A stretch of DNA of 64,000 nt from Dethiobacter sp. (lineage in GTDB: Bacteria > Bacillota > Dethiobacteria > Dethiobacterales > Dethiobacteraceae). The notes under the pieces are model-generated. The model worked only from the letters and a program-made list of their open reading frames with translations. It searched no databases and was not told the origin of the DNA. Location: the NCBI GenBank assembly GCA_020725465.1, contig DYEY01000043.1:1-64000 (forward strand). The letters run 5' to 3'. Made by a program: the position numbers and the translations under genes. This document shows, piece by piece, positions 8,211-10,528 of the stretch; position 1 is the stretch's first letter; every line of letters starts with the position of its first letter.

Positions 8211-9962
8211 TCAGCTGTCTGTGCCTGACTCGCGGATACGCTGAAACTTGCGGACAACGGTGGACTGGTCCACGCCCAGCGCTTCGGCGGCCCGTCTTGT
8301 GGTGCCGTATTTCTGCAGGGCCTTTATAATCAGCTTTTTTTCCACCTGGAACAGCGCCTCTTTCAGGGGGATGACATCAGACACATCCACGTGGAACTGG
8401 CGCTCTTTTTCCACCAGCGTTTTAATCTGCGGCGGTATGTTTTCCAGGCGGATTTCCTCCTCCCTGGTCAGAACCACCATCCGCTCCACAATATTCTGCA
8501 GCTCCCTCACGTTCCCCGGCCAGTCATACTCCGCCAGCCGTTTCACCACCGGCGCGCTGATATACTTTTTCTGCTTGTACTTCTCATTGTACTTCCTCAG
8601 GAAATGGTCGATGAGGTGAGGGATGTCTTCCCGGCGCTGCCGCAGCGGCGGCACAGTGATGGGAATAACGTTAAGGCGGTAAAAAAGGTCCTCCCTGAAT
8701 TCCCCTCTCCGTACCAGCTCCTCCAGGTCCTTGTTGGTAGCGGCGATAATACGCACGTCCAGCTTGATGGGCCTGGTGCCGCCCACCCGCATTATCTCCT
8801 GTTCCTGGATGGCCCGCAGCAGCTTCACCTGCAGGTTGGAAGGTATTTCGGCCACCTCGTCCAACAGCAGTGTCCCCTTGTTGGCCAACTCGAACATGCC
8901 CGGCTTACCTTTACGGTCGGCGCCGGTAAAGGAGCCTTTCTCATAACCAAAAAGCTCTGACTCCAACAGGTTCTCCGGGATGGCTCCGCAGTTTACCTTG
9001 ATAAACGGCTCATCACGCCGGTCGCTGCTGCGGACAATGGCCTGGGCGATAACCTCCTTACCGACGCCGGACTCCCCCAGGATCAGCACGGTGGAATCCA
9101 CCTGCCCCACCCAGGTGGCCAGGTCGTAGATATGGCGCATCTGGGGGCTTTCCACCACCAGGTCCTCATCGGTGCGCTGAGAACGGAGCTGGGCCAGCTC
9201 GTTCTGGTAACGCGCCGCCTGCCTTTGCTTATCTTCCAGTTCCTGCTTGAGCCGGTTAAGTTCGGTGATATCGCGCACGTTGGTCACCACGCGCTCGATT
9301 TCGCCTTTTTCGTTAAAGATGGGGTTGCCGGTAATAAGTACCCGCTTGCCAGTCTTGATTATGTCGTGCATTATGGTCACCCGCTCTTTTTTGCGGAGCA
9401 CATGCAGCGTGACCGAGTCCGAGAAATAGCCTTGGTCCACCAGCTCCTGCATATGGCGGCCGATCACTTCCTCGGCCCTGATACCGGAGATGCGCTCATA
9501 CGCGCTGTTGACATGCAGCGTCTTGCCCTGACCATCGGTTATCCAGATGCCGTCATAGGACGACTCGATTATTTCCTCCAGCTCCCGGGCGAAGATTTTT
9601 TCTTCCCTCAGCTCCTGGCTGACTTTTTCCAGCTCGGAAATATCCTGAAAAACGCCTATAGCCCCCACCAGCCTGCCCGACCGGTCATAGATGGGGGAAC
9701 GGTTGGAAAGAAGCGTCCTGCCACGGAATTTCAGCTTCTGGTGCGGCTGGTTCTGCCCGGTTTTTAAAATCTCCAGCAGGCCCGTCTCGGGAAAAACGTT
9801 TTCAATCCTCTCACCCAGCAGTTTTTCCTCCTGCTCTCCCGCCACCCGGGCCGCCGACTTGTTTATCAGGATGATTCTGCCCTGAATGTCAATAGCCACA
9901 ATGCCGTTATAAACGGCATCCAGCACTTCCTGCACGTCCAGCCCGCTTTTTACCACTGCCAT
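8211..9962 (-). CDS. sigma-54-dependent transcriptional activator, PAS-PAS-AAA-Fis
   Basis: The 583-residue regulator has two N-terminal PAS domains (about 5-110 and 120-240) and a short coiled coil. A central AAA+ domain follows, with Walker A GESGVGKE, the sigma-54 contact loop as GSFTGA (usual form GAFTGA) and the Walker B stretch LLLDEVAEI. The C-terminal Fis-type helix-turn-helix has RRAAEALGVDQSTV. PAS sensors and the lack of a receiver domain suggest direct sensing of a ligand or redox state. I use the ATG at 9962 because AGGAGG precedes it; the frame extends 47 codons further without such a site. Three sigma-54 promoters within 7 kb make it the likely local regulator of acid uptake and oxidation. 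Confidence 0.93.
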   Translation of the reverse strand: MAVVKSGLDVQEVLDAVYNGIVAIDIQGRIILINKSAARVAGEQEEKLLGERIENVFPETGLLEILKTGQNQPHQKLKFRGRTLLSNRSPIYDRSGRLVGAIGVFQDISELEKVSQELREEKIFARELEEIIESSYDGIWITDGQGKTLHVNSAYERISGIRAEEVIGRHMQELVDQGYFSDSVTLHVLRKKERVTIMHDIIKTGKRVLITGNPIFNEKGEIERVVTNVRDITELNRLKQELEDKQRQAARYQNELAQLRSQRTDEDLVVESPQMRHIYDLATWVGQVDSTVLILGESGVGKEVIAQAIVRSSDRRDEPFIKVNCGAIPENLLESELFGYEKGSFTGADRKGKPGMFELANKGTLLLDEVAEIPSNLQVKLLRAIQEQEIMRVGGTRPIKLDVRIIAATNKDLEELVRRGEFREDLFYRLNVIPITVPPLRQRREDIPHLIDHFLRKYNEKYKQKKYISAPVVKRLAEYDWPGNVRELQNIVERMVVLTREEEIRLENIPPQIKTLVEKERQFHVDVSDVIPLKEALFQVEKKLIIKALQKYGTTRRAAEALGVDQSTVVRKFQRIRESGTDS

Positions 9963-10129
9963 AGAGCAAACCTCCTGATGAAATATTACATCATCTCTAT
10001 TCACCGCCTGCCCGCAGAATCCTCTTTTTAAATTGCGCAAATCTTTAAAATAATTTATCTGGTTTTTGTCCCACAAAATGCCTGCGGGAACGCCGCATAT
10101 CAAAAAAGGAACCGGTTAAAATAAAAGCG

Positions 10130-10528
10130 TAAGGGTTCGTAATGGCCGAGTCAAGACTGTTGCAGGGTCTTGCGGCTCTGTAACGGTCGGCCAAAGGTCT
10201 GCAAGCGGGTCCTGAGGCTCGGTGCAGGCCGGAGGGAAGATCAACAGGTGTCATAAGCTCATGCTCTGTGGCAGCCGCAAGGTTGTCACAGGGTGGCGAA
10301 GATACCTGTTGGTCGAGCCAAGACAGCCGTAGGTGCTGAATTCCTGCAGTACTTAACATGCAGGGTCGTCGCCGGCCGCAAGGCCGGTGGTGGCTCAGTA
10401 GGTATCTATGGCTGTCGGGCAAAGGTTGGCATGGGTCCGCCACGGGTTGTGCGCAGCCGGGAGGTTGCCCACAGCTCCCAAAAGACGCACGCCAGCCGGC
10501 GCGAAGGTCATTACGGGCTCTTTTTTTT
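10130..10528 (+). ncRNA. unassigned structured RNA, about 390 nt
   Basis: This stretch has no credible coding frame but many mutually compatible helices. A 10-bp closing stem pairs 10138-10147 with 10506-10515. Others are 10152-10157/10167-10172, 10243-10252/10301-10310 (10 bp), a 13-bp stem 10264-10276/10281-10293 capped by a GCAA tetraloop, 10322-10332/10406-10416 (11 bp) and 10343-10348/10359-10364. Further stems are 10372-10377/10382-10387, again with a GCAA loop, 10449-10453/10486-10490 and 10459-10463/10475-10479. Eight T residues at 10521-10528 follow the closing stem, giving the strand. It lacks the conserved cores of RNase P RNA, tmRNA and SRP RNA as I know them. I do not recognise the class. 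Confidence 0.75.

Follow-up and report, generated by a model that had tools for sequence, protein, structure and literature searches.

A candidate new class of large, modular structured RNA with a forespore-type promoter in Dethiobacter sp. and other spore-forming bacteria

Contig DYEY01000043.1 of Dethiobacter sp. carries a densely structured stretch of DNA that fits no familiar RNA gene, and it raises the question of what kind of RNA would be made there and what that RNA might do for the cell. The window analysed here comprises 64,000 nucleotides of this contig, in which the original prediction had placed a large structured RNA without an assigned class. We find a noncoding RNA gene of ~390 nt at window positions 10133-10520 (+), which is the only copy in this genome. 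Its minimum free energy is −232 kcal/mol, compared with a mean of −156.8 (sd 6.95) for shuffled sequences (z −10.8), and none of 100 shuffles equalled it. A coding gene was considered and rejected: among homologues the longest open stretch has a median of 45-58 of ~130 codons and a minimum of 18-31, and no frame is open throughout or conserved, in agreement with the earlier view that the region holds no convincing gene.

No known family accounts for this RNA. The Rfam scan that had been proposed as a check returned, for the window RNA, no Rfam 15 family at the gathering score and none at E<1. Scans of 20 homologous loci likewise gave no match at the RNA itself, their only Rfam matches elsewhere being a tRNA-Sec and two c-di-GMP riboswitches, and relaxed scans of the window and the homologues produced nothing beyond chance-level or flank matches. 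RNase P RNA, the core of which had already been judged absent, is rejected because 9 of 10 carriers possess a separate copy elsewhere. The window’s own 98%-complete assembly gave no match to either RNase P RNA model, which probably reflects an assembly gap. No description of the RNA was found in the openly searchable literature. Because it matches no library and no description, we rate it as a new RNA class present in no RNA-family library, with the Bacillus RNA Bvs196/S357 compared by description only.

The structure was derived from 51 full-length homologues, which yielded 141 consensus pairs, 115 of them with compensatory changes on both sides. Standard pairs fill 96.7% of the pair cells in this alignment, compared with 79.2% after shuffling and 29-44% when the partners are slid, and the covariation score is 0.630 versus 0.263 for the shuffled control. 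The window sequence itself forms 134 of the consensus pairs. The inner helices listed in the original prediction are thus present and not a product of chance, and its closing stem (10138-10147 with 10506-10515) proved longer than claimed, reaching 15 bp. The two GCAA-capped hairpins were also recovered, one at the tip of arm A3 (~10263-10294) and the other in arm A4, as was the T-tract behind the closing stem. Overall, the closing stem P1 and five arms, A1-A5, surround a hub in which six linkers separate the helices; second helices in A3, A4 and A5 bring the number of helices to nine (Table 1). The linkers are quasi-identical, purine-rich and of GRGCNAA type, with the consensus sequences GAGCCAA, GGCCAAA, GGCGGGCA, GAGCTAA, GAGCAAA and GGAGCGAA for L1 to L6.

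Table 1. Positions in the window of the RNA, its structural elements and the signals around it
Feature	Start	End	Strand	Basis
-35 element GCATA, forespore sigma-F/sigma-G type (putative)	10095	10099	+	Conserved upstream of homologues; 22.0 bits
-10 element GGTTAAAATA, 14 nt past -35 (putative)	10114	10123	+	Motif upstream of 57/71 homologues
Conserved RNA, entire (closing-stem ends)	10133	10520	+	Fold z -10.8; 51 homologues, 115/141 pairs compensated
P1 closing stem, 5' strand	10133	10147	+	99.9% of cells paired; 9/15 pairs double-changed
Hub linker L1, GAGTCAA (family consensus GAGCCAA)	10148	10154	+	Homologue consensus
Arm A1, 15-bp hairpin	10155	10188	+	Double changes in 13/15 pairs
Hub linker L2, GGCCAAA	10189	10195	+	Homologue consensus
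Arm A2	10196	10230	+	Double changes in 11/14 pairs
Hub linker L3, GGAGGGAA	10231	10238	+	Homologue consensus
Arm A3, two stacked helices, GCAA loop	10239	10314	+	Covariation; R2 (from arm A5) matches too
Hub linker L4, GAGCCAA	10315	10321	+	Homologue consensus
Arm A4, variable hairpin and conserved 13-bp GCAA hairpin (10364-10395)	10322	10416	+	Covariation
Hub linker L5, GGGCAAA	10417	10423	+	Homologue consensus
Arm A5, two stacked helices	10424	10497	+	Covariation
Hub linker L6, GGCGCGAA	10498	10505	+	Homologue consensus
P1 closing stem, 3' strand	10506	10520	+	Consensus structure of homologues, covariation
T8 tract, probable terminator tail	10521	10528	+	T-run in sequence
Sigma-A-like promoter of the DUF3786 gene, outside the RNA	10564	10592	+	TTGACC-17-TATAAT, 11/12 matches, TG-extended

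The helices resemble one another closely. Counting outward from the hub, position 1 is G-C and position 12 a G.U wobble in all six hub helices (in 61-98% of sequences), and position 3 is U.G in most of them; both wobbles recur in the three outer helices. Averaged over the nine helices, U.G reaches 0.78 at position 3 and G.U 0.79 at position 12, while the other positions, 1 and 14 excepted, stay at or below 0.14, and the pattern was reached in none of 20,000 within-helix permutations. The window retains the wobbles in most helices, not all. Internal likeness was also seen with covariance models built from parts of the RNA, R1 from the 5' part and R2 from the 3' part (arm A5): R1 matches the 3' half as well, and R2 matches arm A3. 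Given the shared wobbles and these matches of parts to other parts, the RNA looks like a repetition of one ~14-bp module, which may have arisen by internal duplication. Because the wobbles lie at positions 3 and 12, the helix appears near-identical when viewed from either end. To our knowledge, such a repeated-module build is unlike any known RNA family.

In many homologues the 5' strand of P1 can also pair fully with the 5' strand of A5 (10424-10438), this alternative partner lying a constant 82 nt upstream of the true one. A switch operating through the second partner was considered and set aside, as the shared module sequence of the arms explains the pairing better. The alternative is probably a by-product of that sequence, and strand exchange or domain swapping from it is possible.

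Upstream of the RNA, the homologues share the promoter consensus GYATA-N14-GGNNANAATA, which we take to match the B. subtilis consensus of the forespore factors sigma-F and sigma-G; the match does not distinguish the two factors. The pattern NNATR-N12..17-GGNNANNNTR occurs within 70 nt upstream of P1 in 57 of 71 homologues, compared with a mean of 2.0 and a maximum of 8 in shuffled sequences, and the predicted transcription start in the window is ~10130-10132. A promoter matrix trained only on the RNA promoters of distant families scores 22.0 bits at the window site. At the major SASP genes of the window’s relatives, the loci at which other forespore promoters were compared, the same matrix finds GTATA-N14-like sites at a constant upstream place, with 20 of 30 above the 95% control. 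In Clostridioides difficile the SigF and SigG consensus sequences overlap, SASP genes included (PMC7438776). Among the SASP-like sequences encountered, a 148-aa protein (G000:C1:29132-29416) has several separate matches to the SASP family, as do longer proteins in relatives, which makes them unusual multi-part SASP-like proteins.

Downstream, a T-run or a nearby hairpin terminator follows P1 in 64 of 69 homologues. The neighbouring genes vary: across 65 loci no conserved gene family lies beside the RNA and all four orientations occur. With a conserved promoter upstream, T-runs or terminators downstream and variable neighbours, the RNA is predicted to be a transcription unit of its own. These data bear directly on the reading of the RNA as a cis-regulatory leader, which is suggested by the DUF3786 gene (PF12654) directly downstream on the same strand. 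The DUF3786 gene, however, has a separate sigma-A-like promoter, as had been recognised before, terminator signals intervene, and in most homologues the downstream gene is unrelated or on the opposite strand; a constant kind of downstream gene sharing the transcript, as expected of a riboswitch or leader, was not seen in the 65 loci. A leader of DUF3786 is accordingly rejected and regarded as highly improbable, and the original proposal of a stable, free RNA holds up on its own promoter and terminator signals, its unrelated neighbours and its strong covariation. The RNA is free-standing and structured.

Regarding individual neighbours, the divergent gene in the window (8211-10103, −) encodes a PAS-domain sigma-54 activator, a homologue of which adjoins the RNA in one other locus only (L153). 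In several lineages (four loci and two further genomes) the RNA adjoins spoIVA or lies close to it, mostly on the opposite strand.

The RNA is widespread. A search at the nucleotide level detected similar sequences in 17 of 60 relatives. R1 matches 38 of 98 genomes from the class and 147 of 398 genomes sampled from the phylum. R2 matches 171 genomes of the same phylum sample, some of its R2-only matches being weak (E ~1e-4), and the two lists joined give at least one match in 174 of the 398. Carriers include metagenome-assembled genomes (MAGs) labelled Dethiobacter, Desulforudis, Desulfotomaculum, Desulfovirgula, Thermoanaerobacteraceae and Moorellales. One locus (L145, 6225-7211, in genome G047) holds a tandem pair of near-identical copies 567 bp apart, each with a promoter, and three other genomes (G467, G129, G170) have two or three dispersed copies each. 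A record labelled Armatimonadetes (L077, JAIMBK010000044.1) carries RNA, promoter and terminator nearly identical to those of a Desulfovirgula record (L076), so the label or the binning of that MAG is probably wrong. A single exact pattern match in a Planctomycetota MAG (L069), accompanied by no R1 match, was dismissed as chance. In MAGs the RNA is frequently found close to or at a contig end (five instances), and in one genome (G012) a run of N falls inside it; assembly may be interrupted by the strong structure or the repeats. A mobile or phage element was rejected on the grounds that phages and plasmids gave no match to the RNA, nor did viral contigs searched with one exact pattern.

The distribution of the RNA follows that of sporulation. 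With spoIVA (TIGR02836; found in 335 of the 398 phylum genomes) as the sporulation marker and the non-sporulating genomes of the same phylum as control, R1 is positive in 144/335 spoIVA-positive versus 3/63 spoIVA-negative genomes (Fisher p 2e-10, shared ancestry uncorrected), and R1 and R2 together in 169/335 versus 5/63. In four of the five spoIVA-negative carriers sigG scores above the curated cut-off; the remaining genome is 61% complete. The window’s genome contains spoIVA, sigG and SASP genes. The features that mark forespore-controlled RNAs of the CsfG and Bvs196 kind, namely a sigma-F/sigma-G type promoter directly upstream and restriction to spore-forming genomes, are both found here. 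Taken together, promoter and genome distribution strongly suggest that the RNA is transcribed in the forespore. About half of the spoIVA-positive genomes have no detectable copy, so that either the RNA is not essential for sporulation generally or some copies have diverged beyond the reach of the models. The forespore-type promoter, the confinement to sporulating genomes and the modular, repetitive build had all been missed in the original prediction.

The nearest known RNAs are CsfG and Bvs196/S357 in expression, and OLE, ROOL and GOLLD in scale. CsfG is much shorter, at ~70 nt, and has no multi-arm hub, and no Rfam match connects it to the present RNA. It is a forespore-restricted sRNA under sigma-F and sigma-G that is conserved among spore-formers (PMC9147052, PMC12456014). 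Bvs196/S357 of Bacillus is transcribed independently in the forespore under the control of sigma-F and sigma-G, and has a terminator and a conserved structure (PMC9147052); the present RNA is alike in forespore-type control, terminator and conserved structure, its own forespore expression being predicted. Compared by description only, Bvs196/S357 measures 294 nt, folds at −82 kcal/mol and occupies a fixed hinT-ecsA locus in Bacillus, whereas the present RNA has ~390 nt and −232 kcal/mol and lies at variable loci of clostridia-like genomes. OLE, ROOL and GOLLD are likewise large, free-standing and densely structured bacterial RNAs of unknown biochemical role, but they differ in size and fold, and no covariance-model match places the present RNA in any of these families. 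A forespore promoter and a nine-module build are not described for them in the literature searched. The raiA-motif RNA (ModT) differs in length and architecture, and there is no Rfam match to it at the present RNA. It is reported to be a structured RNA found widely in Bacillota and to have a role in C. difficile (PMC11706538).

What, then, might the RNA do? In the reading that we favour, RNA polymerase with sigma-F and/or sigma-G would transcribe the stand-alone gene in the developing forespore, and the product would fold into six helices (P1 and A1-A5) around a hub, with six near-identical purine-rich linkers joining them and a second helix on three arms, the nine helices being versions of one module with wobbles at positions 3 and 12. 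The wobble-marked helices could present equivalent sites on which several copies of a single forespore protein, probably dimeric, would dock, or they could serve as packing faces that bundle helices within or between RNA copies. A compact particle would result, located in the forespore or the spore core. We give roughly even odds (about 0.5) to such an architectural role in the developing spore, with the RNA acting as a protein scaffold or a self-assembling particle. The wobble pattern fits scaffolding, RNA-RNA packing or another role equally well.

A trans-acting regulatory sRNA of the forespore that targets spore mRNAs by base pairing, the role suggested for Bacillus Bvs196, would share promoter class and compartment with that 294-nt RNA. 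Nearly all conserved positions, however, lie in helices or short hub linkers, the alignment shows no long conserved single-stranded seed, and helix sequences vary freely while pairing is kept, which makes such a regulator unlikely; near-dyad-symmetric helices repeated round a hub, together with little conserved single strand, favour an architectural RNA over an antisense one. RNA-only homo-oligomers, which OLE, ROOL and GOLLD form (PMC12286853), offer a precedent for self-packing without a protein scaffold role, and the pseudo-symmetric modules would suit it; as no sequence model links the RNA to these three families, we hold this reading to be just as unlikely as a regulatory sRNA. Size, structural density and conserved hub linkers recall large catalytic RNAs, and comparable features have been used to argue that OLE RNAs are ribozyme-like (PMC11332333). 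A ribozyme or small-molecule sensor that works in the spore core and uses the hub as its active site is nevertheless a shade more doubtful again, given that the conserved elements occur six to nine times rather than as one unique site.

The architectural reading makes a direct prediction, namely that mutating the conserved wobble pairs would break binding or packing on every arm. Its fullest form, an undescribed developmental RNA class of many clostridia, with six spokes and nine near-dyad-symmetric modules, that builds or seeds a repetitive particle of RNA and protein, or of RNA alone, in the spore core, is put forward tentatively, at a little less than an even chance. If true, a component of spore development has been missing from view in about half of the sampled sporulating genomes of the phylum, and the role of large structured RNAs in dormant spores would become testable in culturable carriers.
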